From positions 1-64,000 of the IMG/VR virus record IMGVR_UViG_3300037189_010507: a stretch of 64,000 bases of DNA, one strand, 5' to 3'. Each line of letters opens with the position of its first letter. Position 1 is the first letter of the stretch. Origin of the DNA: a virus. Below are positions 1,198 to 56,703 of this stretch, piece by piece. A program made the translations under genes and the position numbers. The notes beneath the pieces are model-generated. The model did no database searches and was not told where the DNA came from. It worked only from the letters and a program-made list of their open reading frames with translations.

Positions 1198-1620
1198 ATG
1201 CTCACAAAACAACAAGAACAGCAATTAATCAACCTTATTCCAGAGGGCACAAATGGCGAAGACCGCAGGGTTGCCTATTCTGTTATTACTGGGATACGAG
1301 AGGACAAGACTCCATCTCAAATTGCTGGTTATTACACAGCAGATCAAGATTTGGTAAATAAGTGGTACGACTTCTTTGGCTTCTCCAAGCCCAGCTCACC
1401 ACAAAAGGCTGGTAGAGGTCGTAAGAGTAAGGACTTGGCTGGCTTTATTAAGAGCAATACAGGGCGTGTTGTAACTCCAAAAATCGTATCAGATGAACTT
1501 GGAATTTCTTTGCCTACTTTTTATAATTATTATAACGCTAATCGTCATCTTTTTAAGAAAGTAAGACGAGGAGAATTTGAAATTATCAATCCAGAAAAAG
1601 AAAGAAATTCTTCAAAATGA
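1198..1620 (+). CDS. Putative DNA-binding protein with two helix-turn-helix segments
   Basis: 140 residues. Residues 1-60 look like a Trp/Phe-rich helical domain. A basic RGRKSKD linker follows, then a likely helix-turn-helix (IVSDELGISLPTFYNYY) and basic residues. The ATG follows AGAAAGGAAAAAG, a good ribosome site, after the 1064-1132 terminator, so it opens a new transcription unit. RGRKS also occurs in the FEFIDE-family proteins at 10550 and 11793. The role is probably regulatory, but the target is unknown. Confidence 0.65.
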   Translation: MLTKQQEQQLINLIPEGTNGEDRRVAYSVITGIREDKTPSQIAGYYTADQDLVNKWYDFFGFSKPSSPQKAGRGRKSKDLAGFIKSNTGRVVTPKIVSDELGISLPTFYNYYNANRHLFKKVRRGEFEIINPEKERNSSK

Positions 1621-2327
1621 AAAGTTCTTTTGAAAAAGAATTAGAAGTACAAGATAATTATTTTATTTGCTGGGATGATGCAGCAAAGCATTATGTCCAA
1701 AAAATCTTTTCTTTTTCTGAACAGTGCGGAAATAAAAGAATTATTGAAATAATAAATGACATATATACACATAATGGTACAGGTACAACTTTTATTCCAT
1801 TTACATTTATAAACTTTACTGGACACTCAGAATATATTGAATACTTAAAGAACTTAATTAATTCATATATTGAACAAGAGATGAATAAGATAGATCCTCA
1901 AAGATCCGAGGATTTTACAAGTTCTGAAGAATTTTTTGACTCAATCAGAGTTCATCAAGCATTCTTTCTATTAGCATCGCATTGTGCAATCTCCTTGTTT
2001 AAGTATCTATCAGAACATCCAGATTATTCTGGTTTCGTTAATACAATACTTAATCCAAGCATGATTGCATCAACTGTCATTAGAAAACAGAATGACTATG
2101 GCCCAGAAAATATTGCAAAATTTGGTATGTGGGGACTGATTGTAAGACTGCATGACAAGATTGCAAGATTTGAAAATCTTATGTCTAAGAAGAGACAAGG
2201 CGTTAATGCCGTTTCAGATGAAACTGTTTACGATACGTTATTAGATATTGTTGGGTATTCAACAGTTGCTCTTCTTTGGATAAATGGAGACTTTCTTTTG
2301 CCATTGCAAAAGGATCTTGTTGGCTAA
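1617..2327 (+). CDS. DUF1599-like protein
   Basis: 236 residues. The C-terminal half carries NDYGPENIAKFG, GLIVRLHDKIARFENL and DTLLDIVGYSTVALL, the pattern of DUF1599, a family seen in phages and linked by some authors to nucleotide or base metabolism. The N-terminal 120 residues are not recognised. It overlaps the previous gene by 4 nt (ATGA) and the hydrolase gene by 1 nt (TAATG), so it is translationally coupled to both. Confidence 0.65.
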   Translation: MKSSFEKELEVQDNYFICWDDAAKHYVQKIFSFSEQCGNKRIIEIINDIYTHNGTGTTFIPFTFINFTGHSEYIEYLKNLINSYIEQEMNKIDPQRSEDFTSSEEFFDSIRVHQAFFLLASHCAISLFKYLSEHPDYSGFVNTILNPSMIASTVIRKQNDYGPENIAKFGMWGLIVRLHDKIARFENLMSKKRQGVNAVSDETVYDTLLDIVGYSTVALLWINGDFLLPLQKDLVG

Positions 2328-2935
2328 TGACTACAATTGTTGCAATTCAGGGTGATGATTATTGTGTAGTAGGCACAGATTCTAGAGTTTCATCTTTTGA
2401 TGAAAGTGGTCTTGCATATCAAATAACAACACTTGGTACTGGTTCGTGTAAAATTTCTCAAAAGGGAAGATATTTACTAGGAGCTGCTGGAGATGTTAGA
2501 GCAATTAACATTCTTCATCATGCCTTTACTCCACCAGTACCACCATTTAAAACTGGCGGAGAGCAACTTGATGAGTTTATAACCACAAAGTTTATACCAC
2601 AACTTCAAGTTTGCTTTGAGAATACTGGATACGCTATGCCAGATCAAGCAGATGATAAAACACATATGTCAGAACATTCATCTACAATTCTAGTAGCAGT
2701 TAATGGAGTTGTGTATATCATTGATGGTGACTATTCTTGGACCTCAGATAGAACTGGCATCTATGCAATTGGAACTGGTTCTTCATATGCTCTTGGAGCA
2801 ATTTATGCCATCACTGGCGGAAAACAGATATCAATCCAGAAAGCAAAGCTTGCCATTAATAAAGCGCTTTCAATAACATCAAAGTTTGATCCATATACAG
2901 GAGCGCCTTTTCAAACTTTTGCACAGGAGCAATAA
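2327..2935 (+). CDS. Proteasome beta / HslV-like Ntn hydrolase
   Basis: 202 residues beginning MTTIVAIQGDDYCVVGTDSR. After Met removal, Thr1, Asp17 and Arg19 fall exactly where proteasome beta and HslV subunits have the nucleophile and its partners. A CKI with a following GAAGDVRA (residues 40-56) fits the catalytic Lys strand, displaced by about 8 residues through a loop. AIGTGSSYALG matches the conserved GSG-type segment. The family are self-compartmentalising threonine peptidases. No ATPase partner is nearby, and no N-terminal propeptide is present. The ATG at 2327 overlaps the previous stop; an earlier in-frame start at 2276 would bury the Thr. Confidence 0.8.
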   Translation: MTTIVAIQGDDYCVVGTDSRVSSFDESGLAYQITTLGTGSCKISQKGRYLLGAAGDVRAINILHHAFTPPVPPFKTGGEQLDEFITTKFIPQLQVCFENTGYAMPDQADDKTHMSEHSSTILVAVNGVVYIIDGDYSWTSDRTGIYAIGTGSSYALGAIYAITGGKQISIQKAKLAINKALSITSKFDPYTGAPFQTFAQEQ

Positions 2936-3108
2936 TGCCAACTTATCAATATAAATGCCTTAGTGGTCATGAGGTAGAAGAAACAAGAAAAATTAATGAA
3001 GATCAAAAAATGATCTGTTGTCCAATATGCGGAGATGCTTTAAAACCTGTATACTCATCACCGGGTGTCCAATTAAAAGGCGGAGGCTTCTATCGGAATA
3101 GCCGATAG
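2935..3108 (+). CDS. FmdB-type zinc ribbon protein
   Basis: 57 residues, too short for many gene callers. It opens MPTYQYKCLSGHEVEE, has a CCPICG knuckle, and ends with VQLKGGGFYRNSR. This is the pattern of FmdB-family zinc ribbon proteins, which are common in actinobacteria and their phages. The ATG overlaps the hydrolase stop by 1 nt (TAATG), so the two are coupled. Whether it regulates transcription or binds the hydrolase is unknown. Confidence 0.8.
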   Translation: MPTYQYKCLSGHEVEETRKINEDQKMICCPICGDALKPVYSSPGVQLKGGGFYRNSR

Positions 3109-3232: not shown

Positions 3233-3520
3233 ATGTGTAATGAAAATTATGCTGTAATACGAGACATGCAGCAAAGTGTACAGGATTGTGAGAGACAAAT
3301 CACTATATGGATGAAAACTGCTGAGCAAACGACAATCCAATCTTTCTATGCAAATGCAGAAAGAGATGCTTATAAAAAGATTATAAGAGAGATTATTGAG
3401 GCTATTGAAAACGAAGGGCCAGTACCTCACTATCACCATCATGTTATGAGAAAGCATCGCAGTGAATGGCCGACTTTATGGAAGGCTATTGATAAGGCAA
3501 TTGAGAAAATAAATGATTGA
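3233..3520 (+). CDS. Hypothetical helical protein
   Basis: 95 residues. The ATG at 3233 follows AAGAAAGAAAA; an upstream start at 3209 lies inside the terminator. The protein is rich in charged helices (MKTAEQTTIQSFYANAERDA) and has a PHYHHH patch that could bind metal. It overlaps the oxygenase gene by 8 nt, so the two are co-translated. Family not recognised. Confidence 0.65.
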   Translation: MCNENYAVIRDMQQSVQDCERQITIWMKTAEQTTIQSFYANAERDAYKKIIREIIEAIENEGPVPHYHHHVMRKHRSEWPTLWKAIDKAIEKIND

Positions 3521-4076
3521 TTATATTGAAGACCTAATTCCAAAAGAAAAGCAGAATCTTATTGAAGACTATGTAAAGGATTCGAGTTTCCCATATAGAT
3601 TTCATAAAACTCATATCTATGAGCAAGGAGCAACTGGCAATTCTCCACTGCAGTTGACACATCATTTAATGATGTACGGAGAAGAGCGTGTTTCTCCACA
3701 CTTTCCGATAATAACATCCGTTTATGATAGCTTGATCAAACTTTATGGGAATATCACACTATTTCGTGCAAAGGTAAACTGCACCTTCCCTGACCCTACG
3801 AGGACTGGATACGAGCCTCAGGAGCCTCATACTGATTTAAAATACGATGATGGTCGTAAGATTCCACATCTCGTATGTTTATATTACATAAATGATTCTG
3901 ACGGACCAACATACTTCTATGATAAAGATAAAATTTCTTTGGCAATCCCCCCAAAAAAAGGTTCTGCCGTAGTTTTTGATGGTAGTATCATTCATGCGGG
4001 TAGTAACCCCATTCATAACCCTTTTAGATTTGCTTTAAATATCAATTTTAGAAAAGGTTTAAATCAAATTTTATAG
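3513..4076 (+). CDS. 2-oxoglutarate/Fe(II)-dependent oxygenase
   Basis: 187 residues with the double-stranded beta-helix signature. HTD at 106-108 and His161 in DGSIIHAGS give the HxD...H iron triad, and Arg172 in PFRFALNINFR fits the 2-oxoglutarate-binding Arg. The layout resembles prolyl-4-hydroxylase-like enzymes, which are common in aquatic phages. The substrate is unknown: protein, nucleobase and sugar are all possible. Confidence 0.8.
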   Translation: MIDYIEDLIPKEKQNLIEDYVKDSSFPYRFHKTHIYEQGATGNSPLQLTHHLMMYGEERVSPHFPIITSVYDSLIKLYGNITLFRAKVNCTFPDPTRTGYEPQEPHTDLKYDDGRKIPHLVCLYYINDSDGPTYFYDKDKISLAIPPKKGSAVVFDGSIIHAGSNPIHNPFRFALNINFRKGLNQIL

Positions 4077-5191: not shown

Positions 5192-5601
5192 TGCTAACCA
5201 AGTTAATTAAAAAACTAAATCAGATTCTCTCACGAAGGAATCAGGCAACCGTAACAGAGACTGCCTTCTATGATAGAGACAAGATTGAAGAGATTCAAGC
5301 CTTTGTTTATAAAGACCTTGATCTTATCAAGAAGAAAACTGCTCGAACCGCCTATATCAAGAATCTCCCCCAACCGCTTTCTGAAGAAGCAATCAAGAAG
5401 ATTAAAGATAATAAGATGGAGTTATCCCGTGAAATTGATCGCATGCTGCGAGAGAAGCAACTGAGAGACAAAAAGATTGCCGAGATCCAATTTAACAAGC
5501 TCTCCGATCTGCAAAACAAGATTAAGAAGCAGTACTCCGATATTTCCCCGATTCCTCGTCACCCTTCTACCCCGAAAGACAATGAGACAGATACTCCGTA
5601 A
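5191..5601 (+). CDS. Helical/coiled-coil hypothetical protein
   Basis: 136 residues, mostly charged helix with heptad-like spacing (EAIKKIKDNKMELSREIDRM, KIAEIQFNKLSDLQNKI) and a Pro-rich tail. It is the last gene of the first plus-strand region, coupled to the preceding gene by a 1-nt overlap. Family not recognised. Confidence 0.65.
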   Translation: MLTKLIKKLNQILSRRNQATVTETAFYDRDKIEEIQAFVYKDLDLIKKKTARTAYIKNLPQPLSEEAIKKIKDNKMELSREIDRMLREKQLRDKKIAEIQFNKLSDLQNKIKKQYSDISPIPRHPSTPKDNETDTP

Positions 5602-5894
5602 AAATTTAATACAAATTTTTGACGGTAAACTCCCGATCTCAATTGTGATGAAACTCAACCGAACCCGTTTTTTCTAAAATTTTAGTATGCAGTTGTGGAA
5701 GGCTATGCATGCATACGATCGTGGATAGTCTTTGTCTGTTTGCGGGGTCAATGCCATTGGCATACCCCTTGGGGTACCCCTGCCCAATGAGATCCTGCAT
5801 ATTATGAAAGTTCGCGCCCTGCCCGCCCTGTAAATAAAGGGGTCGGGTGCATAAATATACGGCGGGGTGCATAAAAAAAATGTGTGCGGGGTAG
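5602..5894. other. Non-coding stretch at the GC boundary
   Basis: No gene is supported here. It holds a palindrome (TACCCCTTGGGGTA at 5763-5776), two GGGTGCATAAA copies 20 bp apart (5845 and 5865), and a TTTAGTATGC element at 5681 like those ahead of later array promoters. GC content rises here and stays high to about 12200. Confidence 0.6.
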
Positions 5895-5923
5895 TTGTGT
5901 TGGGTCGCCTATTGGGATAATAT
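5895..5923 (+). promoter_or_regulatory. Promoter, array unit 1
   Basis: -35 TTGTGT (5895-5900), 17-nt spacer, -10 TAATAT (5918-5923). It is the first of a repeated promoter type. Confidence 0.75.
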
Positions 5924-5929
5924 TTACTT

Positions 5930-5954
5930 ATCGGGCGGGGCGGTCTCGCCCGAT
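5930..5954 (+). promoter_or_regulatory. 5'-leader hairpin next to ribosome site
   Basis: ATCGGGCG pairs perfectly with CGCCCGAT, and the GGAAAGG ribosome site begins at the next base. The stem could affect initiation or protect the mRNA. Confidence 0.5.
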
Positions 5955-5966
5955 GGAAAGGTAAAT

Positions 5967-6272
5967 ATGCAGGTTGTAGATATGACCCAGAAAACGGCAG
6001 TAGAGTACATTCTCTTCACTGTCGGGCACGAGTCGGGTAATGGCCGTGACGTTGTTCACTTTATGAACAGAAAAGATGTGGAAAATTATATCCATACCGT
6101 ACTTGTCCCATTGCACCTAGAGGATGACGGCTTCAGCCCCGATGACATTCAGCAGATTTACACAACTACCACAGTCTATGGCGACTGCGATGTGTCTCTG
6201 GAAATTGACGGTCAAGCGTGGAGTCAGTGTTTCAAGGTAACTCGCACCGAGCGTTTCATTCGCTACGAGTAG
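5967..6272 (+). CDS. Array gene 1, hypothetical
   Basis: 101 residues, acidic, beginning MQVVDMTQKTAVEYILFTVG. The ATG at 5967 lies 5 nt after GGAAAGG; the in-frame ATG at 5895 coincides with the -35 box and is excluded. It contains VHFMNRKDVENYIHTVLVPL and an YGDCDVSLEID strand. The small alpha/beta composition resembles anti-host early proteins, but no family is recognised. Confidence 0.65.
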   Translation: MQVVDMTQKTAVEYILFTVGHESGNGRDVVHFMNRKDVENYIHTVLVPLHLEDDGFSPDDIQQIYTTTTVYGDCDVSLEIDGQAWSQCFKVTRTERFIRYE

Positions 6273-6280
6273 CCCCCTGC

Positions 6281-6338
6281 CCCGCTCGCAATGCGGGGTA
6301 TCTCACGAGACCCCGCTCGCAATGCGAGCGGGGTCTTC
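6281..6338 (+). terminator. Terminator preceded by an alternative hairpin
   Basis: AGACCCCGCTCGC (6308-6320) pairs with GCGAGCGGGGTCT. The 16-base CCCCGCTCGCAATGCG occurs twice, 30 bp apart (6281 and 6311), so an upstream hairpin can compete with the terminator stem. Confidence 0.7.
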
Positions 6339-6500
6339 CAATTCCCGCCCCATTCCCGCCTGCCCCCGCAAACGGCTGCATCGATCGAGCCGGGGCGGAG
6401 CTTCACGCCCTGCTATCTAACTGTATGCATTTATGGGAATTGAGTATACATCAAATTATGGGAAACGCTGGCCTTTCAAATTATGGTAGCCTATTTTTTC

Positions 6501-6541
6501 GAGGGTGTAGGGAACAAAGGTACGACTTTCTTACACCCTTT
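6501..6541 (+). repeat. Long-hairpin family member H0
   Basis: GGGTGTAGGGAA pairs imperfectly with TTCTTACACCC. It is a diverged first member of the array hairpin family. Upstream, AAATTATGG occurs twice. Confidence 0.5.
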
Positions 6542-6591
6542 CGTCTGACGGTGTATGTCCGAGAAATTTCAACACAAATTCTGAACAATAC

Positions 6592-6620
6592 TTGTATTTC
6601 CCGATAGTTTCCTGTAATCT
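6592..6620 (+). promoter_or_regulatory. Promoter, array unit 2 (leaderless)
   Basis: -35 TTGTAT, 17-nt spacer, -10 TAATCT, then only 6 nt to the ATG at 6627. No ribosome site can fit, so a leaderless mRNA is implied. Confidence 0.75.
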
Positions 6621-6626
6621 AACCTT

Positions 6627-7136
6627 ATGACAAAGCGTCAAGCCAAAGCAGGTAATGGTCGCGTGGTGACCAATACCCCCAATAGTGCGAAGGGTCAAAG
6701 CACAGTTACCAAGTCCGCTGTATTGCGTCACATTGCGACAGCACGAGCAGTGAACATTAGCCGTGGAGTAAAGGCACACTATGACAACGAAGGCACACAG
6801 CGTCTGGCTGAAGCCATTGCTAAGTCATTCCGTATGCCAACACTCACGGAAGCGAAACTTACCGAGAAAGGCAAGGACATGCCCAAGAATGCACAAGATG
6901 GCGCAATGCGTAGAGAGTTTGCAATAGCACACAAGGCTATCGCCATAGACATCTCTACTATTCTCGGAGAGAGAAAGGGTGGAAAGATTATCCACAACCG
7001 CCCTGAGAACAACCTACACCTGAAACTCGCAGGTATTGCTGTAGCAATGGGGCTACCTGCTAAGACTTTCTACCCCGTTCGTTCTCAGGCCGTTCGTGAC
7101 GGTGAAGTACCTACGGTGTACATAGTACGCCGATAG
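6627..7136 (+). CDS. Array gene 2, paralogue of array gene 6
   Basis: 169 residues. It shares with the 9157 protein a basic disordered N-terminus, HYDNEG, RREFA...HKA, ILGE...GGKIIHNRPEN and AMGLPAKTFYPVR. The charge and the conserved basic/aromatic C-terminal segment suggest nucleic-acid binding. The family was not recognised from memory. The start is fixed by the promoter 6 nt upstream. A strong terminator follows, so it is a single-gene unit. Confidence 0.75.
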   Translation: MTKRQAKAGNGRVVTNTPNSAKGQSTVTKSAVLRHIATARAVNISRGVKAHYDNEGTQRLAEAIAKSFRMPTLTEAKLTEKGKDMPKNAQDGAMRREFAIAHKAIAIDISTILGERKGGKIIHNRPENNLHLKLAGIAVAMGLPAKTFYPVRSQAVRDGEVPTVYIVRR

Positions 7137-7160
7137 AGCGTTCGCAACCCCCGACATTGG

Positions 7161-7190
7161 AGAGCCTACCCGAAAGGGTAGGCTCTCTCT
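7161..7190 (+). terminator. Terminator of array gene 2
   Basis: An 11-bp stem AGAGCCTACCC / GGGTAGGCTCT with a GAAA tetraloop, followed by CTCTATGT. Confidence 0.85.
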
Positions 7191-7207
7191 ATGTGTTATG
7201 GGCTTGG

Positions 7208-7245
7208 GTGGTGTGACAATGATCCCCAGATCATTGTCACACCAC
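7208..7245. repeat. Perfect 17-bp hairpin
   Basis: GTGGTGTGACAATGATC and its exact complement flank a 4-nt loop. It sits where other units have the GGTGTAAG-type hairpin, but its sequence differs. Confidence 0.85.
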
Positions 7246-7307
7246 TTCGTATGAGCGTGTCTCTATGAATAAATTTAGTGCAAATTCCAAAAATGATTAG
7301 AGAATGG

Positions 7308-7336
7308 TTGTGTTTGCTACCTTTCCGTGTTACATT
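7308..7336 (+). promoter_or_regulatory. Promoter, array unit 3 (leaderless)
   Basis: -35 TTGTGT, 17-nt spacer, -10 TACATT, 6 nt to the ATG at 7343. A TTTAGTGCAAATTC element lies upstream at about 7274. Confidence 0.75.
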
Positions 7337-7342
7337 CAGGGT

Positions 7343-7567
7343 ATGAGAAATCATTCATACATCACCCCAACACTTGATCACAACCTATTCCTAATTTCAT
7401 TCGCCCGCCCGCTTCGCATTCAGCGTAAGTATGTTGAATGCATTGTGCGTAAGCGTTTCAATGACACAATGTTGCGACACTACTCAGGTACTGTCATCAT
7501 TTTCAATGTGTCTCAAATTGACAAGCGCAATTTCCGTGTTCTCTGTCTCGTTACGCCAAAAGCGTAG
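7343..7567 (+). CDS. Array gene 3, small basic hypothetical
   Basis: 74 residues, basic and beta-rich (LFLISFARPLRIQRKYVECI, TVIIFNVSQIDKRNFRVLCL). The ATG at 7343 lies 6 nt after the -10 box; an earlier in-frame start at 7304 would lie in the -35 region. No family is recognised. The next hairpin starts 16 nt after the stop. Confidence 0.65.
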   Translation: MRNHSYITPTLDHNLFLISFARPLRIQRKYVECIVRKRFNDTMLRHYSGTVIIFNVSQIDKRNFRVLCLVTPKA

Positions 7568-7583
7568 CGAGATAGAGAGCTGG

Positions 7584-7622
7584 GCAGGTGTAACGCCTTG
7601 GCATAGCCAGCGTTACACCTGC
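7584..7622. repeat. Long-hairpin family member H2
   Basis: A perfect 13-bp stem, GCAGGTGTAACGC / GCGTTACACCTGC, around a 13-nt loop containing TTGGCATAGCCA. It may double as terminator for array gene 3, which has no other. Confidence 0.85.
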
Positions 7623-7683
7623 GTCTATGTAGTCACTCACTCAGGCAAATTTAGTGCAAATTCTGGAAATGTTTCTAGAAAGA

Positions 7684-7711
7684 TTGCTTTCCCAATTTTT
7701 TCAGTTATACT
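7684..7711 (+). promoter_or_regulatory. Promoter, array unit 4 (leaderless)
   Basis: -35 TTGCTT, 16-nt spacer, -10 TATACT, 7 nt to the ATG at 7719. TTTAGTGCAAATTC precedes it at about 7650, as in unit 3. Confidence 0.7.
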
Positions 7712-7718
7712 CTTACCT

Positions 7719-8003
7719 ATGAAGAAATACAACTCATTCCAAATGACACTGCTACCAACTCGTGAAAGCGAAGCAGGTCGTGACATTTACACCGTCTATG
7801 TAAGCATTCCCAACTATGAATTGGGTGATGATGTGCATTTTCTTGGACTTACCGCTCGTCAGGCGTTCTCTAGCGCAATGGAATTTATAAACGAAATTGT
7901 CGGGCGTATGTGCGCACATTGTAGCAACGTTACTCCTGCAAGTGATGAGACCTACCGCAACGCTGGAATTTGCCACTCTTGCTACGAAAAAATCTCGCTC
8001 TAA
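7719..8003 (+). CDS. Array gene 4, small protein with C-terminal zinc ribbon
   Basis: 94 residues. The N-terminal two thirds are beta-rich (DIYTVYVSIPNYELGDDVHF). The C-terminus has MCAHCSNV...GICHSCYEKI, a CxxC...CxxC knuckle likely to bind zinc. The ATG at 7719 is set by the promoter 7 nt upstream; longer in-frame readings cross hairpin H2. Interaction with host RNA polymerase or DNA is possible but not shown. Confidence 0.7.
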   Translation: MKKYNSFQMTLLPTRESEAGRDIYTVYVSIPNYELGDDVHFLGLTARQAFSSAMEFINEIVGRMCAHCSNVTPASDETYRNAGICHSCYEKISL

Positions 8004-8024
8004 GAAAAAGGACAGCACACAGGG

Positions 8025-8050
8025 GAGCGGGTCGCAAGACCCGCTCTTTT
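8025..8050 (+). terminator. Terminator of array gene 4
   Basis: GAGCGGGTC-GCAA-GACCCGCTC followed by TTTTCCTTTT. The same hairpin recurs at 8487, evidence of a duplicated unit end. Confidence 0.9.
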
Positions 8051-8060
8051 CCTTTTCCTG

Positions 8061-8099
8061 GCAGGTGTAAGAGTTCGGCATAGCCGTTCTTACACCTGC
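8061..8099. repeat. Long-hairpin family member H3
   Basis: A 12-bp stem GCAGGTGTAAGA / TCTTACACCTGC, with GGCATAGCC in the loop, very similar to H2. Confidence 0.85.
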
Positions 8100-8188
8100 T
8101 TGTCTAAACACAACATAGATTGAGCTTTTAGTGCAAAAAATTAGTTGTAGTGTACAAATACTTTTTTCAAGTTTTTTTGGAATTGGGG

Positions 8189-8216
8189 TTGTGTTTGCCT
8201 TTGCATTTGTTATACT
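8189..8216 (+). promoter_or_regulatory. Promoter, array unit 5
   Basis: -35 TTGTGT, 16-nt spacer, -10 TATACT. The upstream block TTTTTTTGGAATTGGGG is nearly repeated ahead of unit 7 (about 9814). Confidence 0.8.
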
Positions 8217-8222
8217 GTGTGT

Positions 8223-8243
8223 ATGGCAATAGCGCCAGAGTGA
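8223..8243 (+). CDS. Possible leaderless upstream peptide (6 residues)
   Basis: An ATG 6 nt after the -10 box encodes MAIAPE and stops 11 nt before the main gene. Spacing matches the leaderless starts of other units, so it may be a relic start or a regulatory upstream reading frame. Confidence 0.3.
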   Translation: MAIAPE

Positions 8244-8254
8244 AAGGAACTCCA

Positions 8255-8461
8255 ATGCGAGTCTTTGATAGCCCCGACAACAAACTGTCCGACATTCTTG
8301 ACCAAATGCAGGCAGAAGCCTGTTCTTGGGATGGCGTATTCTCAGCACAGTACATTGCAGGAGTGATTTACGCCTGCGAGTGGTTGCGTAACAGCGCAAG
8401 CAACCTGAGCGACAACGGCGTTCTCTTGAGCGAAGCAATCCTAGTTCCCCCAAAAAAATAG
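8255..8461 (+). CDS. Array gene 5, small acidic hypothetical
   Basis: 68 residues, helical and acidic (DNKLSDILDQMQAEACSWDG, IAGVIYACEWLRNSASNLSD). The ATG at 8255 follows GAAAGGA at proper spacing, so this unit uses a normal ribosome site. A longer in-frame reading from 8150 crosses the promoter and is rejected. No family is recognised. Confidence 0.65.
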   Translation: MRVFDSPDNKLSDILDQMQAEACSWDGVFSAQYIAGVIYACEWLRNSASNLSDNGVLLSEAILVPPKK

Positions 8462-8486
8462 AAAGGAGAGTTTTTCTTCTGCGGGA

Positions 8487-8514
8487 AGAGCGGGTCGCAA
8501 GACCCGCTCTTTTG
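8487..8514 (+). terminator. Terminator of array gene 5
   Basis: Same GAGCGGGTC-GCAA-GACCCGCTC stem as at 8025, followed by TTTTGCTTTT. Confidence 0.9.
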
Positions 8515-8522
8515 CTTTTCTG

Positions 8523-8562
8523 GCGGGTGTAAATCTTATTGGCTCCGCCGATTTACACCCGC
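8523..8562. repeat. Long-hairpin family member H4
   Basis: A 12-bp stem GCGGGTGTAAAT / ATTTACACCCGC around a loop with GGCTCCGCC. Confidence 0.85.
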
Positions 8563-8601
8563 AGGTACGAAATAACAACACATAAAGATTTGAGTATGTG
8601 C

Positions 8602-8630
8602 TTGTAATTGTGTTTGGTAACTGATAAGGT
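8602..8630 (+). promoter_or_regulatory. Promoter, array unit 6a (leaderless)
   Basis: -35 TTGTAA, 17-nt spacer, -10 TAAGGT, 6 nt to the GTG at 8637. The spacer itself contains TTGTGTTTG. The -10 is weak but the spacing fits the array rule. Confidence 0.55.
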
Positions 8631-8636
8631 GAAGCC

Positions 8637-8849
8637 GTGACAAACACAAACAAGCCGACTGAAATTACAGAGGCACAATCAGCACCCCGTTTCTACCAAG
8701 AGTTAGTCAAGGACTTGACTGAGACCCTTGCCCTCGGAGACTTTCAGGAACTGTTCCTGGACTTCTTGGCTTACTACGAGGACAACCTTGAGGTTCTCAA
8801 GATGGCTCGTCTGTGCTACGCAGACCTCATAACCGAAATCTACGGCTAA
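8637..8849 (+). CDS. Array gene, acidic helical hypothetical
   Basis: 70 residues with a GTG start fixed by the promoter. Acidic and helical (FYQELVKDLTETLALGDFQE, LVKDL, YYEDNLEVLKMA). Acidic small early proteins often mimic DNA or bind host enzymes, but that is speculation here. Family not recognised. Confidence 0.65.
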   Translation: MTNTNKPTEITEAQSAPRFYQELVKDLTETLALGDFQELFLDFLAYYEDNLEVLKMARLCYADLITEIYG

Positions 8850-8870
8850 GACCCCCCAGCCCCCCCAGCG

Positions 8871-8900
8871 GACCCCCTCTCGGAGCGAGAGGGGGTCTTG
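8871..8900 (+). terminator. Terminator
   Basis: A 12-bp stem GACCCCCTCTCG / CGAGAGGGGGTC with a 3-nt loop, then TTG. Confidence 0.85.
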
Positions 8901-8906
8901 CTATGT

Positions 8907-8945
8907 GCGGGTGTAGACGCTCGGCTCCGCTCGCTCCCACACCCG
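8907..8945. repeat. Long-hairpin family member H5 (imperfect)
   Basis: GCGGGTGT pairs with ACACCCGT around an inner GACGCTCGGCTCCGC-type loop, and GTGTAATAA follows at once. Confidence 0.6.
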
Positions 8946-9121
8946 TGTAATAAAAGTAAATATACCTTTATGTAGAGTATACAAATTCCAATTGATATTG
9001 ACTTTCCTGCAGGCGGGTGTGGTGCAAAGCAAACGCAGTGATCCACACCCGCAAGCTTGATACGATCGTTCCGAGCGTTTTTAGTAGAAAAATGTAATCA
9101 AAAAAAAAATTGTGTTAGTGG
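8946..9121. other. Non-coding inter-unit region with extra hairpin
   Basis: No gene seen. It contains ACCTTTATG at 8964, AGTATACAAATTCCAATTG, hairpin H6 and TTTAGTAGAAAAATG ahead of the next promoter. It is the only inter-unit gap with two family hairpins, so a cassette may have been lost between them. Confidence 0.5.
9013..9052. repeat. Long-hairpin family member H6
   Basis: A 10-bp stem GCGGGTGTGG / CCACACCCGC. Its whole sequence is almost the reverse complement of H11 at 12211, including the loop. Confidence 0.85.
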
Positions 9122-9150
9122 TTGTATTTACCAATGGAGTGCCTTAGTAT
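9122..9150 (+). promoter_or_regulatory. Promoter, array unit 6b (leaderless)
   Basis: -35 TTGTAT, 17-nt spacer, -10 TAGTAT, 6 nt (GTCCTT) to the ATG at 9157. Confidence 0.8.
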
Positions 9151-9156
9151 GTCCTT

Positions 9157-9639
9157 ATGGCATCAACACCTAAGACTACTGCTAAGCAGGGTCGCAATAC
9201 CAAGTCCACCCCGACCGCAAAGGTCACCTACACGGCAGTAATGGCGCACATCTCTAGTGCTCGTAGTTTCCGTCTAGCACAAGGCGCAAAGGCTAACTAC
9301 GACAATGAAGGCGCACAACTACTTGCAAAGGCTGTCGTGAGAGCGTCTGCTATGCCAACAATGGCGAGCGAAGGTATCACTACCGACAAGGCTCGCCCAA
9401 TGGCTCAAGCTCGCCGTGAGTTTGCTCGCACTCGTAAGGCTCATCTGCTCAATGTTTCCGACATTCTCGGTGAAGGTAAGAATGGCGAGATTATCCACGA
9501 CCGCCCCGAAAACACCATTCGCATTCGCCTTGCGTCTATCGCTAAGGCTATGGGACTTCCAGCAGACACCTACTACGCCGTGAGAGCGAATGAATACGCC
9601 GTAGGCGACATTCCGCAAGTGTTCATCGTTCGCAAATAG
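9157..9639 (+). CDS. Array gene 6, paralogue of array gene 2
   Basis: 160 residues with the blocks listed for the 6627 gene: ANYDNEGAQLLAKA, RREFARTRKAHLLN, ILGEGKNGEIIHDRPEN and AMGLPADTYYAVR, ending in PQVFIVRK. The N-terminal 25 residues are a basic Ser/Thr/Lys tail, as in many nucleoid-type proteins. The two paralogues are separated by four unrelated genes, which implies duplication within the array. Leaderless start. Nucleic-acid binding is inferred. Confidence 0.75.
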   Translation: MASTPKTTAKQGRNTKSTPTAKVTYTAVMAHISSARSFRLAQGAKANYDNEGAQLLAKAVVRASAMPTMASEGITTDKARPMAQARREFARTRKAHLLNVSDILGEGKNGEIIHDRPENTIRIRLASIAKAMGLPADTYYAVRANEYAVGDIPQVFIVRK

Positions 9640-9662
9640 CGAACGCCTAACCGCCCCCCAAT

Positions 9663-9692
9663 GAAGCCCGCCCTAAGGGGCGGGCTTCACCT
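9663..9692 (+). terminator. Terminator of array gene 6
   Basis: An 11-bp stem GAAGCCCGCCC / GGGCGGGCTTC, then ACCTTG. Confidence 0.85.
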
Positions 9693-9699
9693 TGTACGG

Positions 9700-9738
9700 G
9701 CGGGCGTAAGATCTGCGCAAGCTTGATCTTACGCCCGC
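9700..9738. repeat. Long-hairpin family member H7
   Basis: A perfect 14-bp stem GCGGGCGTAAGATC / GATCTTACGCCCGC. One base later an exact TGTAATATTACA begins (9740), then ACCTTTATG (9757). Confidence 0.9.
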
Positions 9739-9827
9739 GTGTAATATTACATTGAGACCTTTATGTTTAGTACATAATTTCAAATTATGATTACCTAGAA
9801 AAAATAGAAACATTTTTGGAATTGGGG

Positions 9828-9856
9828 TTGTGTTTCTGTATTCGTTTAGTTAGTAT
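9828..9856 (+). promoter_or_regulatory. Promoter, array unit 7
   Basis: -35 TTGTGT, 17-nt spacer, -10 TAGTAT, with a leader of about 30 nt before the gene. Confidence 0.8.
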
Positions 9857-9894
9857 GTACATACAAGGCGCAAGCCCCTAACGAAAGAAAGAAA

Positions 9895-10185
9895 ATGAAA
9901 GTTCCAGAATTTGCAACTCATTCAGTTATCCGTTTAGAAATGCCATACGAAATGTATCGTTGGGTTCTGTATTGCTTGGCTACCTACGACAACCCCAGAG
10001 ACCACGACGCAGTTGAGTTGCATAAAAATGCTTTTGAGTTTGCAGAATCTTTGGGTGCAGAATCTCCTCACCATTTCATTTCAGAAAATCTTCCGTTTAT
10101 GCAATGCTACTACACCCAATTAGTAAAACTATCGCAGACTGCGACAGAGCAGGCAAGAATCGTTTTAGAAGCGCTTGAGGGTTAG
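9895..10185 (+). CDS. Array gene 7, helical hypothetical
   Basis: 96 residues, acidic and helical, with an aromatic-rich centre (EMPYEMYRWVLYCLATYD) and ISENLPFMQCYYTQLVKL. The ATG follows CGAAAGAAAGAAA. Single-gene unit with its own promoter and terminator. Family not recognised. Confidence 0.65.
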   Translation: MKVPEFATHSVIRLEMPYEMYRWVLYCLATYDNPRDHDAVELHKNAFEFAESLGAESPHHFISENLPFMQCYYTQLVKLSQTATEQARIVLEALEG

Positions 10186-10189
10186 TCCG

Positions 10190-10215
10190 TTGGGGGCAGG
10201 TAACACTGCCCCCAT
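10190..10215 (+). terminator. Terminator of array gene 7
   Basis: GGGGGCA / TGCCCCC stem around GGTAACAC. The T-run is weak. Confidence 0.65.
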
Positions 10216-10221
10216 AAGCGG

Positions 10222-10260
10222 GCAGGTGTAAGACTCTTGCTTTGCGAGTCTTACACCTGC
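10222..10260. repeat. Long-hairpin family member H8
   Basis: A perfect 15-bp stem GCAGGTGTAAGACTC / GAGTCTTACACCTGC around TTGCTTTGC. TGTAATGTTACA follows 5 nt later. Confidence 0.9.
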
Positions 10261-10453
10261 GTCTGTAATGTTACACGATAATAAAAATTGAGTGTGTATA
10301 TGTAATATTACTTAGACTATCTTTATGGATGTAATATTACAATCTTGAACTTTATGGAGCTGTGTAATATAAGAGATCCTGTGTAATATAAGCTGTAATT
10401 TTAGAAAAACCCGTGTAATACTAGAAAAAATCTGAAAAAATGTGGAAAAGTGC
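10261..10453. repeat. TGTAAT-type palindrome and half-site cluster
   Basis: No gene. It contains TGTAATGTTACA, an exact TGTAATATTACA (10330), two GTGTAATATAAG half-sites (10362, 10381), GTGTAATACTAG and two CTTTATGGA motifs. Probably protein-binding DNA. Confidence 0.65.
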
Positions 10454-10482
10454 TTGTGTTCTCTGGGTATCTCCTGTATCTT
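10454..10482 (+). promoter_or_regulatory. Promoter, array unit 8
   Basis: -35 TTGTGT, 17-nt spacer, -10 TATCTT. Leader of about 60 nt before the gene. Confidence 0.7.
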
Positions 10483-10549
10483 TATAAATACCAAAGGGAA
10501 ACGCCCCGATGGTGCGGAAAGTATCCGTTACACACAGTTAGGAAAAACA

Positions 10550-10840
10550 ATGGAGTTTGAGTTCATTGATGAAAATGAAATTCAGGCAGTGCGCCGTGGA
10601 CGTAAGTCCACCGCCCCCCCTGAATTGGTAGAAGCCCTTGCGAAAATGCCAAAGGGTCAGGCAGTCCGTATCAAGGGAATGAAGTTAGACCCAAGTTCCC
10701 CCGACTACAAGAATGACAAGGCTTCCGTATCGGCAAGCATTCGCAGTGCTGGCAAGTTGGCAGGGGTGAAGGTTGCTATCTCGTGGTCACCTGATGGTGT
10801 TCCACAGGTAAAGACCAAGGTGGTCAGGGCTAAAAAGTAG
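10550..10840 (+). CDS. Array gene 8, FEFIDE-family protein
   Basis: 96 residues. It starts MEFEFIDENEI, has an RRGRKSTAPPEL basic patch, then PKGQAVRIKG and ASIRSAGKLAGVKVAISW. The 11793 and 12446 proteins share this order throughout. The basic patch and the paired small alpha/beta segments suggest a DNA-binding domain. The ATG at 10550 follows AGGAAAAACA; an upstream reading from 10442 crosses the promoter. Function inferred only. Confidence 0.75.
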   Translation: MEFEFIDENEIQAVRRGRKSTAPPELVEALAKMPKGQAVRIKGMKLDPSSPDYKNDKASVSASIRSAGKLAGVKVAISWSPDGVPQVKTKVVRAKK

Positions 10841-10881
10841 TACCCCCCTACTGCTTTCGCAGTCCTACCTAGCCCCCGTTA

Positions 10882-10909
10882 CCCCGCCCGCCCTAATCAG
10901 GCGGGCGGG
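10882..10909 (+). terminator. Terminator overlapping hairpin H9
   Basis: CCCGCCCGCC / GGCGGGCGGG stem. Its right arm is also the left arm of H9, so only one can form at a time. Confidence 0.65.
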
Positions 10910-10944
10910 CGTAATGAAGTCGTTCCTTTGTTCATTACGCCCGC
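10905..10944. repeat. Long-hairpin family member H9
   Basis: A 14-bp stem GCGGGCGTAATGAA / TTCATTACGCCCGC followed by TTTTCT, which could itself terminate transcription. Confidence 0.9.
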
Positions 10945-10984
10945 TTTTCTAATCGTAACATTACACACAAATTTAGTATGAAAT

Positions 10985-11013
10985 TGTAATATTACACACC
11001 TTGTAATATTACA
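10985..11013. repeat. Two exact TGTAATATTACA palindromes, 17 bp apart
   Basis: Exact copies at 10985 and 11002. A TTTAGTATGAAATTG element lies immediately upstream. Confidence 0.9.
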
Positions 11014-11066
11014 TAGATGTCCGGAAAATGCAGTAAATAATTTTTTGCTGTAATATTAGGAAATGG

Positions 11067-11095
11067 TTGTTTTGGCCTTGGCTATCTGGTAGTCT
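11067..11095 (+). promoter_or_regulatory. Promoter, array unit 9
   Basis: -35 TTGTTT, 17-nt spacer, -10 TAGTCT, 7 nt to an ATG at 11103. Confidence 0.7.
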
Positions 11096-11120
11096 TTCAT
11101 TTATGAAAGGAGGTAGCCAT

Positions 11121-11246
11121 ATGAAGCTTGCAGTACTTTACCCGAACGGGCACAAGTCTCCAATTTCGGAGGAGCAAGTCGCAAAGTACGGGCTGCGAGT
11201 AGGAATGCTCACACCGTTCACGCGCTTGCCAATCGTGGAACTCTAG
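11121..11246 (+). CDS. Array gene 9, 41-residue peptide
   Basis: Encodes MKLAVLYPNGHKSP... ending RLPIVEL, a small compact protein missed by length cutoffs. The ATG at 11121 has a perfect AAAGGAGG ribosome site. A second in-frame ATG at 11103 lies 7 nt after the -10 box and would give a leaderless product with MKGGSH added; in that reading the ribosome site is coding. Family unknown. Confidence 0.7.
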   Translation: MKLAVLYPNGHKSPISEEQVAKYGLRVGMLTPFTRLPIVEL

Positions 11247-11264
11247 AGTTACACGGTGAGAACG

Positions 11265-11292
11265 GGGGAGGGTCTAATGACCCTCCCCTATT
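11265..11292 (+). terminator. Terminator of array gene 9
   Basis: A 10-bp stem GGGGAGGGTC / GACCCTCCCC with a TAAT loop, then TATTCTT. Confidence 0.85.
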
Positions 11293-11322
11293 CTTACAGA
11301 GCACTGTGTAACATTACAGAGG

Positions 11323-11361
11323 GCGGGCGTAAGGTTCACACTCTTGTAACCTTACGCCCGC
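11323..11361. repeat. Long-hairpin family member H10
   Basis: A perfect 14-bp stem GCGGGCGTAAGGTT / AACCTTACGCCCGC, directly followed by TGTAAGATTACA. Confidence 0.9.
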
Positions 11362-11432
11362 ATGTAAGATTACACCATGCGAGTAGATTTTAGTATGAAA
11401 TTGCAATATTACACGGTAATGGAGATCCGATC

Positions 11433-11530
11433 GTGTAATATAAGCGATCGTGTAATATAAGACCGTGTAATAATAAATCGTGTAACTTTATGTCAAGCTG
11501 TGTAACATAAGAGATCTCGTGTAACATAAG
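11433..11530. repeat. Six tandem GTGTAAYATAAG half-sites
   Basis: Copies or near copies begin at 11433, 11450, 11465, 11480, 11500 and 11519, with 15-20 bp spacing. They are a half-site version of TGTAATATTACA and lie upstream of the unit 10 promoter, so cooperative repressor or activator binding is plausible. Confidence 0.8.
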
Positions 11531-11577
11531 AAACTGAGATACTTGCACACTACAAGTATTATTTTTTCTGTTTGACG

Positions 11578-11606
11578 TTGTGTTTGCCGATTAGTTCGGT
11601 TAGAGT
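11578..11606 (+). promoter_or_regulatory. Promoter, array unit 10
   Basis: -35 TTGTGT, 17-nt spacer, -10 TAGAGT. Confidence 0.75.
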
Positions 11607-11792
11607 TCTACTTGTCAGATTGACACTCGGTTACGGGGTCGGTTAGGCAGGGATTTTTCCCTAGCATTTTCCGCCCGTTTCGGTTCTGACCTAGCAAGAG
11701 TGAAGGGTCGTAGTAGGCGCACCATAATTCCCTACAAGTCACCATTGGCAACGGTGATTATTCACAAAAAACTTTCAAGAAAGGCTTTCATA
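11607..11792 (+). other. Unusually long 5' leader of array gene 10
   Basis: About 180 nt between promoter and start codon, against 6-60 nt in the other units. It can fold small stems (AGGGA/TCCCT near 11653, CACC/GGTG near 11742). A reading frame open from 11700 has no ribosome site. Post-transcriptional control is possible. Confidence 0.45.
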
Positions 11793-12095
11793 ATGGATTT
11801 TGAATTTATTGATGAAGGCGACATTGAAGGCGTCAAGCGTGGTCGCAAGTCGCAAGTTCCGCAAGAGCTCATTGACTTGTTCAAGGCTATCCCAGCAGGC
11901 AAGGCAGTCCGACTGTCTGAGTTTGCAGGAGACCCAACAGACCCCGATTACAAGACACACAAGCAGAACGCAGGTTCTACTATCCGTCAGGCTAGTAAGC
12001 AGGCAGGCATTGAAATTCGCATTTCATGGTCTCCTGCAGGCGTTCCGCAGGTGTCTCGTAAAGCGCCTAAGAAGTCTGCCAAGTCTGCCAAGTAA
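11793..12095 (+). CDS. Array gene 10, FEFIDE-family protein
   Basis: 100 residues. MDFEFIDEGDI, KRGRKSQVPQEL, PAGKAVRLSEFAGDPTDPDY and STIRQASKQAGIEIRISWS align with the 10550 protein over the whole length. It ends in a Lys/Ser tail (KKSAKSAK) typical of DNA-binding proteins. The ATG follows AAGAAAGG. This is the last gene of the plus-strand array. Confidence 0.75.
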   Translation: MDFEFIDEGDIEGVKRGRKSQVPQELIDLFKAIPAGKAVRLSEFAGDPTDPDYKTHKQNAGSTIRQASKQAGIEIRISWSPAGVPQVSRKAPKKSAKSAK

Positions 12096-12112
12096 TTAGG
12101 CAGGCGTAGCGC

Positions 12113-12200
12113 ACATACCGCCAAGAGTGCCGAAGCACTGCAACGGTATGGGAAATGTAACCCCGACACACTCGCCAAGTGTGTCGGGGTTCTTTTTTTT
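12113..12200 (+). terminator. Structured end of array gene 10
   Basis: A nested hairpin (CATACCG...CGGTATG enclosing AGTGC-CGAA-GCACT) is followed by a strong terminator: CCCCGACACACT / AGTGTGTCGGGG and a TTCTTTTTTTT tail. Confidence 0.9.
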
Positions 12201-12210
12201 CTGCTTACGG

Positions 12211-12249
12211 GCGGGTGTGGATCACTGCGTTTGCTACGCACCACACCCG
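12211..12249. repeat. Long-hairpin family member H11
   Basis: CGGGTGTGG / CCACACCCG stem followed by TGTAATGTTACA. The loop is in the opposite orientation to H6. Confidence 0.85.
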
Positions 12250-12373
12250 TGTAATGTTACACATCTTTATCATAAATTATAATACATATTTGTAATCACA
12301 TTATAGATAATATATTTTATTACCTTTATGTAATCTTTATGGGGGTATGTAATATTACATTAGATCGCGCAAA
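12250..12373. other. Non-coding, AT-rich convergent region
   Basis: No gene. It holds TGTAATGTTACA, ACCTTTATG (12322) and an exact TGTAATATTACA (12348), lying between the end of the array and the minus-strand gene's terminator. Confidence 0.6.
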
Positions 12374-12413
12374 TAAAAAAAAGAGAAAGGGTAGCATTTC
12401 TGCTACCCTTTCC
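12374..12413 (-). terminator. Minus-strand terminator
   Basis: Read on the minus strand, AAAGGGTAGCA / TGCTACCCTTT is followed by CTCTTTTTTTTATTT. It ends the 12446-12760 gene. Confidence 0.9.
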
Positions 12414-12445
12414 CGGACTCTTAGTGAACTATTTGGTTTCTTTAT

Positions 12446-12760
12446 TTAGGAAACTTTTTTCGCGTATGGAACATTCTTTATGTCCCAAGTAATGCGAACC
12501 TTTTTCCAACCCGCAATTTTTGCCTGATTGCGGATAATTGCTGAGTTTGCAGCCTTAGCAGTTTTCTTATCTTCTGCCGTAACAAAATCGTTACCCAATG
12601 CCAAGTTTCCTACCTTGACAATTTGACCAACTTTTGCCTTAGCAAAAAACTCAACCATCTCAGGAATAACGACAGCCTTACGCCCACGTTTTACTGAGTC
12701 AATTTCTGATTCGTCAATGAACTCAAATGAGAATCCATTATTTTCGTCTTTTGGAGCCAT
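12446..12760 (-). CDS. FEFIDE-family protein, minus-strand copy
   Basis: 104 residues. GFSFEFIDESEIDSVKRGRK, a KVGQIVKVG strand and IIRNQAKIAGWKKVRITWD align it with the 10550 and 11793 proteins, with a short N-terminal extension. It is the most AT-rich copy, on the opposite strand, as if adapted to the rest of the genome. Upstream on the minus strand TTGTTTGCC resembles the array promoter. DNA binding is inferred. Confidence 0.75.
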   Translation of the reverse strand: MAPKDENNGFSFEFIDESEIDSVKRGRKAVVIPEMVEFFAKAKVGQIVKVGNLALGNDFVTAEDKKTAKAANSAIIRNQAKIAGWKKVRITWDIKNVPYAKKVS

Positions 12761-12893
12761 TTTTATCTCTTTTCTTTTAGTTATTTGGCTATTTATTTGA
12801 CACGTTCACCGAGTCAATTATCACGATAGCGGGTGGAATGGCAAACAACTACCGATAAATAAAAAAATATAAAAAAGATCCATTTCTGAATAG

Positions 12894-12931
12894 AATACGC
12901 GATCTAAAGATCAGCTCAATACGCGATCTAA
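12894..12931. repeat. Direct repeat AATACGCGATCTAA x2
   Basis: Two exact 14-base copies, 24 bp apart (12894 and 12918), each containing GATC. Confidence 0.85.
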
Positions 12932-12938
12932 TCCAAGA

Positions 12939-13055
12939 TGTAATATTACAGGGGTTGTAATATTACACAGATGGGTGTAAGAGCGTCTATTGCCGAACTT
13001 ACACCCATTTGTAATATTACATAGTGCTAAAGAAATTGTAGTGTGTAATATTACA
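12939..13055. repeat. Cluster of four exact TGTAATATTACA palindromes
   Basis: Copies at 12939, 12956, 13010 and 13044. The first pair is 17 bp apart and the last pair 34 bp (2 x 17). Hairpin H12 lies between the pairs. Confidence 0.9.
12971..13008. repeat. Long-hairpin family member H12
   Basis: An 11-bp stem ATGGGTGTAAG / CTTACACCCAT, immediately followed by a TGTAATATTACA copy. It is the only member with A-T replacing the outer G-C pair. Confidence 0.85.
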
Positions 13056-13072
13056 GGGGCTATCCTTTTCTA

Positions 13073-13110
13073 AATCTAATCCTAAATTCTAATCCAAATC
13101 CAAATCCTAA
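13073..13110. repeat. Short tandem AATCCTAA/AATCCAA repeat
   Basis: Five to six degenerate units of 6-9 bp (AATCTAATCCTAAATTC, AATCCAAATCCAAATCC). Confidence 0.7.
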
Positions 13111-13376
13111 CATCCCGGCACCTTTATGGCGGGGCAATAGGGTTACTAATACTACGTCTGATACCTGATCTATTCTTAGAAGGTATTAACTACCTATAGA
13201 TAGGTATTACAGCATTGTAATTTGCACATTTATAGCCTCAAAACGCACACTAAAATTCTCACAAATAAAAACCGCCTAATTTATGAGCATTTTACTGTCT
13301 TTTTGATTGATTTTATAAACAATTAGTTTGTTTTTTTATATAATTAGTAACATTTTTTCACCTTTATGGGGGGTAC

Positions 13377-13397
13377 TTATCCACAATATTATCCACA
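13377..13397 (+). promoter_or_regulatory. Two perfect DnaA boxes
   Basis: TTATCCACA at 13377-13385 and again at 13389-13397, same orientation, 12 bp apart. Confidence 0.75.
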
Positions 13398-13421
13398 ATT
13401 CGGGGGATAAGTCTTATTCTG

Positions 13422-13445
13422 TATATAGATAGAGATAGATAGAGT
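13422..13445. repeat. GATA-type simple repeat
   Basis: TATAGATAGAGATAGATAGAG, a short run of 4- and 6-bp units. Confidence 0.75.
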
Positions 13446-13523
13446 ATTCAATGTCTGATCACACACCAGTTTATCTAATATATTTCTACCTTTATGTAGC
13501 ACGCTAAACAAGACCATTATAGG

Positions 13524-13581
13524 TATTTAGAAATATTCCATCACTATTTAGAAATATTTCATAGGTATTTAGAAATATTCC
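13524..13581. repeat. Three iteron-like repeats at 21-bp spacing
   Basis: TATTTAGAAATATTYC occurs at 13524, 13545 and 13566, exactly two helical turns apart. Each contains AAATATT, so each is partly palindromic. Confidence 0.9.
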
Positions 13582-13685
13582 CCTAGTATTTCTTATATAG
13601 GTATTTGGGGGTAAATTGGAAGTAATTCCTTAGCAGATCTCAGTATGCCTTAAAGGAATCTATTCTTCAGAATACCCTTATCTAT

Positions 13686-13874
13686 CTATTCTTCTTCATA
13701 GCTCAATTCAGTAAAAAGGTATCCTATTATCCTTACTGTTCTTTGGAACTGTTCCCTATCCTTATCCTCTAGAGAAGTATCAGTCAAAACCGAATTTTCT
13801 ATGAATTCCAGATAAACCTCTAAAGCTTCATAGATAATGTCTTTCTCTATATCATTCAAATCTACAGCACTCAT
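13686..13874 (-). CDS. Small acidic helical protein
   Basis: 62 residues, acidic and helical (LNDIEKDIIYEALEVYLEFI). It is the first gene of the minus-strand block next to the putative origin. The start MSAVDL has AGGATATAAATG context. Not recognised. Confidence 0.55.
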   Translation of the reverse strand: MSAVDLNDIEKDIIYEALEVYLEFIENSVLTDTSLEDKDREQFQRTVRIIGYLFTELSYEEE

Positions 13875-26706: not shown

Positions 26707-26983
26707 TAGTTTTTACTACCTTAATAGAAACATCTTTGGCAATAACGCTACGTTGTGCAAGAATTTTACTTCTTTCTTTTGGAGTTGTGCCTCCCCAAAT
26801 GCCAAAAGCTTCTTCATTTTTTAAAGCATATTCCAGACATTCCGCTCTTACAGAGCAAATCTTGCAAAAAGCTTTAATTTCAGCAGATTGCTTTGCTGAA
26901 CCTTTTACCCCAGGTTCAGGGTAAAATAACTCTGTATCTTGACCAAAACATGCAGCGTTATTACGCCAAGTTTCATTATTCAT
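26687..26983 (-). CDS. WhiB-type Fe-S transcriptional regulator
   Basis: 98 residues with the four Wbl cysteines C12, C40, C43 and C49 (CxxCx5C), plus NEEAFGIWGGTTPKER, the conserved G-[IV]-W-G-G turn and basic segment. Wbl proteins bind a 4Fe-4S cluster and contact the main sigma factor. They are confined to actinobacteria and their phages. This copy may redirect host transcription or mimic a host regulator. Confidence 0.9.
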   Translation of the reverse strand: MNNETWRNNAACFGQDTELFYPEPGVKGSAKQSAEIKAFCKICSVRAECLEYALKNEEAFGIWGGTTPKERSKILAQRSVIAKDVSIKVVKTNDNNKI

Positions 26984-56462: not shown

Positions 56463-56703
56463 CTTCCTTATATGCTCTTTTCCAAATCGTGTTGAGGTAA
56501 TCATACTCTGACATACCCGCAACAACTCCTACAAAATAATCATTTTCTAATGCCATTATTAGGCATTCTTTTTTAACATTACATCTCGCACAGCCAGATT
56601 TTGCATATTTAACATCGTTAAGATCATAAGACAACCATTTGTTGGCAAACTTATCGTTAGCACAAACTGCCTCATCTCTCCAACTACTTTGTTGTTGCAT
56701 CAT
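56401..56703 (-). CDS. Second WhiB-type Fe-S regulator
   Basis: 100 residues. WRDEAVCANDKF (C14) and SGCARCNVKKECL (C38, C41, C47) give the four Wbl ligands. GVVAGMSEYD replaces the GVWGG turn of typical members, and the basic AT-hook-like tail is weak. It is not close in sequence to the 26687 copy. The ATG at 56703 lies in the upstream gene. A partner to the first copy is possible. Confidence 0.85.
   Translation of the reverse strand: MMQQQSSWRDEAVCANDKFANKWLSYDLNDVKYAKSGCARCNVKKECLIMALENDYFVGVVAGMSEYDYLNTIWKRAYKEDESNWRTDNSTLSRLLQKAQ

Follow-up and report, generated by a model that had tools for sequence, protein, structure and literature searches.

Phage-borne homologs of the proteasome are already known. 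Fuchs, Alva and Lupas reported PPH and AAH in 2021 but could assign no function to them (PMC8665760), and our search of the later literature found none; further phage members are annotated in GenBank. Both are compact group-I proteasome-like proteins that conserve Thr1, Asp17 and Lys33 and lack a propeptide; the authors found no co-occurring AAA+ partner, and no AAH in Actinobacteria-specific phages (PMC8665760). The bacterial homolog BPH (PDB 5ovs, 5ovt, 5ovu) is heptameric; it has no known unfoldase and its pore loop is long and acidic, whereas that of HslV (ClpQ of HslVU) is short (PMC8665760). Here we compare these systems with a peptidase gene in a 64,000-nt window, positions 1 to 64,000 of the 90.6-kb IMG/VR record IMGVR_UViG_3300037189_010507, which an earlier note had read as encoding a phage proteasome beta/HslV-like threonine peptidase. 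What is new is the size of the actinophage clade and its virus-only nature in a strict-pattern scan, evidence against a capsid role in the window phage type, and a Ubl/E1/JAB/AAA cassette in jumbo relatives.

The peptidase ORF opens ATG-ACT (Met-Thr) and has no propeptide. Each of the 81 relatives inspected has Met or Val immediately before the Thr; the propeptide is therefore absent throughout. A start at TTG 2276 is ruled out, as sequence conservation begins only at Met-Thr. The phrog_1040 profile ('peptidase HslV family') matches the product at E = 2.3e-21, and pairwise dN/dS of 0.01-0.10, for pairs with unsaturated dS, indicates purifying selection, confirming that the ORF is real and not a chance frame. 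One-base TAATG overlaps flank the gene at 2325-2329 on the 5′ side and 2933-2937 on the 3′ side, and the DUF1599-like, peptidase and zinc-ribbon genes are thus likely translationally coupled (Table 1). The earlier note was right on this overlapping order, on the missing propeptide and on the FmdB-type zinc ribbon, which passes its Pfam cut-off (Zn_ribbon_8, 37.3 bits). Its label for the upstream gene stands in part: phrog_1485 matches at 4.5e-11, but the Pfam DUF1599 score falls below the cut-off (17.3 vs 25).

Table 1. Positions in the window of the peptidase gene, its key residues and neighbours, and the host-marker genes
Feature	Position	Strand	Remarks
HTH-like gene, 140 aa	1198..1620	+	HTH-like by weak matches; conserved neighbour
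DUF1599-like / phrog_1485 gene	1617..2327	+	TAATG-coupled, upstream of peptidase
Proteasome-like (Ntn, Thr1) peptidase gene, phrog_1040	2327..2935	+	ATG start, 202 aa; profile, predicted fold, conservation
Thr1 codon	2330..2332	+	Putative N-terminal nucleophile, exposed on Met removal; invariant in 83 distinct relatives
Asp17-Ser18-Arg19 codons	2378..2386	+	Asp invariant, Arg mostly kept
Lys33-equivalent codon (ORF residue 42)	2450..2452	+	Invariant
Loop 100-118, 'pore loop' position	2624..2680	+	Net acidic; low model confidence
FmdB-type zinc-ribbon gene	2935..3108	+	TAATG-coupled, downstream of peptidase
WhiB gene region	26765..26968	-	WhiB search; Actinobacteria host marker
Second WhiB gene region	56503..56682	-	WhiB search

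Residue numbers follow the proteasome, as assigned from the alignment, with the Thr after Met as 1. Thr1, Asp17 and Arg19 are all found in the window ORF, as had been claimed, and the catalytic Lys is in place, separated from Asp17 by 8 additional residues. Thr1, Asp17, Lys33, Ala49, Asp166 and the Arg at the 53-equivalent are invariant in 83 of 83 distinct sequences; positions 129 and 169 hold Ser or Thr in all 83, while Gln replaces Arg19 in a few. The Thr1/Asp17/Lys33/Gly47 catalytic set of the proteasome-like family is present, its last position being Gly in 81 sequences and Ala in 2.

The AlphaFold2 model of the window protein (pLDDT 85, pTM 0.82) adopts the four-layer alpha-beta-beta-alpha Ntn fold, with helices at 57-66 and 78-99. 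Foldseek places BPH (5ovt/5ovs) and HslV on top and 20S beta subunits next, all at probability 1.00; TM-scores to BPH and HslV are moderate (about 0.6-0.7) and the rmsd is 5-6 Å. Both features on which the earlier note had made its reading depend, the Ntn fold (as predicted) and the catalytic Lys, are present. Profile searching agrees with Foldseek, BPH and HslV again being the best matches, although a PDB search with the single sequence returned weak matches and a profile was required. Pfam PF00227 (Proteasome) barely clears its cut-off (23.4 vs 22.4 bits) and was not reported by a six-frame search of the record.

Against each described family, the window protein shows both likenesses and differences. 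With BPH it shares the long acidic pore loop, but only 18% identity, and it has the extra residues between Asp17 and Lys33. With HslV it shares the Thr1 peptidase fold, a short C-terminus and the lack of a beta-type H5, whereas E. coli HslV has Cys in place of Asp at 166 and a short loop, no HslU partner gene occurs in the 90.6-kb record, and the HslV equivalog TIGR03692 scores 28.1 bits where 157.75 are required. It departs from 20S beta subunits in lacking a propeptide and in being the one homolog in its record, with no partner alpha subunit, and from PPH (about 140 residues, second helix missing) in its 202 residues and in having both helices in the model. AAH, compared by description only, was not reported from actinophages (PMC8665760), whereas the window protein comes from one. 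Phage relatives already annotated are WJZ48484.1 of DSL-LC01, Pitbull gp77 and Pumpernickel gp135, homologous over most of their length at 44%, 29% and 29%; they are annotated as protease or HslV only and lie in other gene surroundings. The profile, the conserved residues and the predicted fold together support the earlier assignment to the proteasome-like threonine peptidases, yet as a protein that is not HslV itself.

Such a fold need not mean a protease, as connectase illustrates (PMC8665760), and the 8-residue insertion falls in the region of connectase's own insertion. It is short, however, and partly or wholly absent in two relatives (L002 and L077), and helices 1 and 2 are present in the model, unlike in connectase. 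We regard a ligase, transpeptidase or amidase as highly improbable.

The earlier note had also found the lack of a partner ATPase striking. The absence itself stands: the 90.6-kb record holds no ClpX/HslU/PAN-type AAA+ gene, just one sub-cut-off RecA-like match. It is, however, usual for phage proteasome homologs (PMC8665760). An AAA_2/AAA unfoldase is missing from all six records (G000-G005) that are of the window type (siblings of ~100 kb) or of similar size; a RecA-like gene comes near the AAA cut-off. One of them, G000, is incomplete, its portal and capsid genes not being found, so an ATPase could lie off the record; the other five, however, also lack one. At the pore-loop position, loop 100-118 spans 16-19 residues and is net negative in every aligned relative. 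In the profile alignment it corresponds to the acidic loop of BPH, which likewise lacks a known unfoldase partner; the E. coli HslV loop is short. By analogy, the long acidic loop supports an action that may be independent of an unfoldase.

We therefore favour, with a probability of roughly 0.5, a portable, unfoldase-independent peptidase for takeover, possibly ring-forming, that would be an accessory rather than a capsid protease. Whereas BPH is bacterial and heptameric, the window protein is viral and known here from its gene and a predicted monomer model; we infer its activity, ring assembly, substrates and role. The product would be a group-I threonine peptidase of the proteasome-like family, competent for catalysis, in which, as the intact site suggests, Thr1 would be the nucleophile once the initiator Met is removed. 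It would probably form a homo-oligomer like those of BPH and HslV, a single or double ring with its pore narrowed by the long acidic loops. Working without a phage-encoded unfoldase, it could cut peptides and proteins that are small or unfolded, or borrow a host chaperone or ATPase. In the window phage type the gene, which lies beside genes of nucleotide metabolism (ThyX, DUF1599-like), may have an accessory part in takeover or proteome turnover. A stronger dependence on the host is conceivable, in which the peptidase, by docking onto AAA+ unfoldases of the host or mixing with its proteasome subunits, would redirect the cell's proteolysis. Actinobacterial hosts often possess proteasomes and Mpa/Clp ATPases, and the window record has no phage unfoldase. 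The long acidic pore loop is nevertheless of the unfoldase-free BPH sort and the protein has little identity to known beta subunits, and we consider such redirection unlikely.

Relatives of the peptidase are numerous among viruses. A scan of viral contigs yielded 90 loci with a relative and an alignment-based scan at least 558 IMG/VR loci; identities among the kept loci run from 43 to 100%. Among about 85,000 cellular genomes, a single contig matches, one binned as Gammaproteobacteria (JAURLY010000091.1). A cellular origin was rejected for it, as it matches type-D phages gene by gene and has WhiB, and it is a mis-binned actinophage-like contig. The cellular scan used strict peptide patterns, which a distant cellular AAH would escape, and under such patterns the clade appears to be virus-only. 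WhiB marks both Actinobacteria and the phages that infect them (PMC6802176, PMC10202952). It occurs in 33 of the 39 records searched, twice in the window's own, and the carriers are thus actinophages, the window phage being a freshwater one. Distant homologs were also found where the earlier note had pointed, in other actinophages: the cultured Planktophila phages E7 and F5 (OX376640/41; host, PMC10202952), Arthrobacter phage Pitbull and Microbacterium phage Pumpernickel. DSL-LC01 has a homolog too. By homology, actinophages do carry proteasome-like genes, whether AAH or otherwise. The clade is large, strongly conserved and, in the strict-pattern scan, viral, and with distant homologs in cultured phages its function is directly testable. 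Two contigs (G010 and G028) hold two peptidase copies each, in different layouts or with their own cassette; these may be real or assembly chimeras, and we did not rely on them.

Gene layouts were defined on 134 loci. Layout A, that of the window, comprises ThyX, DUF5872, a small membrane protein, the HTH-like gene, the DUF1599-like gene, the peptidase and the zinc ribbon, which lies immediately 3′ of the peptidase in 18 loci. The DUF1599-like cluster occurs in further phage layouts too. Layout B runs from terminase through other genes to metallophosphoesterase, peptidase, small membrane protein, portal, scaffold-like and major capsid genes; layout D consists of metallophosphoesterase, peptidase and WhiB; and in layout J, that of jumbo phages, a different zinc-ribbon gene directly follows the peptidase. 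A metallophosphoesterase gene lies immediately 5′ of the peptidase in 54 loci of layouts B and D (for example L034:320-1483). In the peptidase tree the main group of A sequences forms a monophyletic clade (0.999) and J, B and D are intermixed, which indicates movement of the gene between dissimilar phages.

The position of the peptidase in layout B, between the terminase and the portal, scaffold and major capsid genes, raises the question of whether it is a head (scaffold or capsid) maturation protease. In Planktophila phage F5 the distant homolog (L192:17155-17691, minus strand) directly follows portal, and the genes nearby include no other recognisable head protease. In the window-type sibling G003, however, the peptidase is not the protease found between portal and capsid genes: a phrog_9427 head-maturation protease lies there, and the peptidase sits on the other strand, in a separate operon beside ThyX and DUF1599-like genes. 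Layouts A, D and J, as well as Pitbull, Pumpernickel and RpAliso, show no recognisable head gene next to the peptidase. A general role in head maturation, drawn from layout B and F5, was rejected for the window type given the conventional protease of G003; judged by gene content it appears unlikely there, and we hold the reading as a whole to be quite improbable. Separately, a 695-aa ORF of G003 (L199:13727-15814) joins in one frame an N-terminal head-maturation-protease region and a Dps-like region (about residues 320-460).

The jumbo relatives carry, upstream of the peptidase and on the same strand, genes for a JAB protein, a ThiF/E1-like protein, a protein of about 83 residues and a PAN/CDC48-like AAA ATPase. 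This JAB-ThiF-Ubl-AAA order is found in 42 loci (L208-L249; for example L210:7200-11614 in G013). The JAB protein is weakly PRTRC_A-like, and the best match of the ThiF/E1-like protein is PRTRC_ThiF (1e-10). Sequence searches returned no family for the 83-aa protein, which is present in all 42 loci and ends in a conserved EFHRR(A/S)GEKG, followed by two further residues in four. Its AlphaFold2 model has a beta-beta-alpha-beta-beta-beta topology (core pLDDT near 87), which Foldseek matches best to ubiquitin (variants) and to the Ubl domain of parkin. Nothing specific on ubiquitin/proteasome cassettes in phages emerged from our searches of the literature.

The kept gene order, the predicted Ubl fold and the presence of the peptidase, 8-14 kb downstream, at 32 of the 39 testable loci with the cassette are consistent with a ubiquitin-like tagging pathway (E1-like, Ubl, JAB and PAN/CDC48-like AAA) in jumbo actinophages that would end in degradation by the peptidase, the window phage having the peptidase arm alone; G010 has two cassettes and two peptidases. 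If these gene sets act together, one virus would hold both the tagging and the degrading arms of a ubiquitin-proteasome-like pathway. Several genes intervene between cassette and peptidase, however, no HbYX-type C-terminus was found among the AAA ends examined, and the cassette is absent from the window phage and its siblings. Seven of the 39 records, three of them >150 kb, have the cassette without the peptidase. Within one phage lineage the two are thus strongly but not invariably linked, and common descent can account for this. We accordingly rate the pathway as unlikely. An AAA+ partner as a rule was also rejected: the jumbo AAA genes had seemed to be partners, but cassette and peptidase each also occur alone. 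The Clp-like AAA_2 gene of the jumbo relatives is phrog_4871/ClpB-D2-like and distant from the peptidase. In one cassette-bearing jumbo phage, a 121-aa ORF (L235:20129-20494) occupies the syntenic place of the peptidase.

Elsewhere in the window, the ORF at 3513-4076 is a 2OG-Fe(II) oxygenase by Pfam, while its best PHROG, phrog_274, is 'DNA endonuclease V'; one of the labels is probably wrong. The region 5600-15100 is mostly G+C-richer and gene-poor; hairpins (GGCAGGTGTAAG...CTTACACCTGC) recur in it alongside several TGTAATATTACA palindromes, and it contains two paralogous ORF pairs, 6627-7136 with 9157-9639 and 10442-10840 with 11700-12095.
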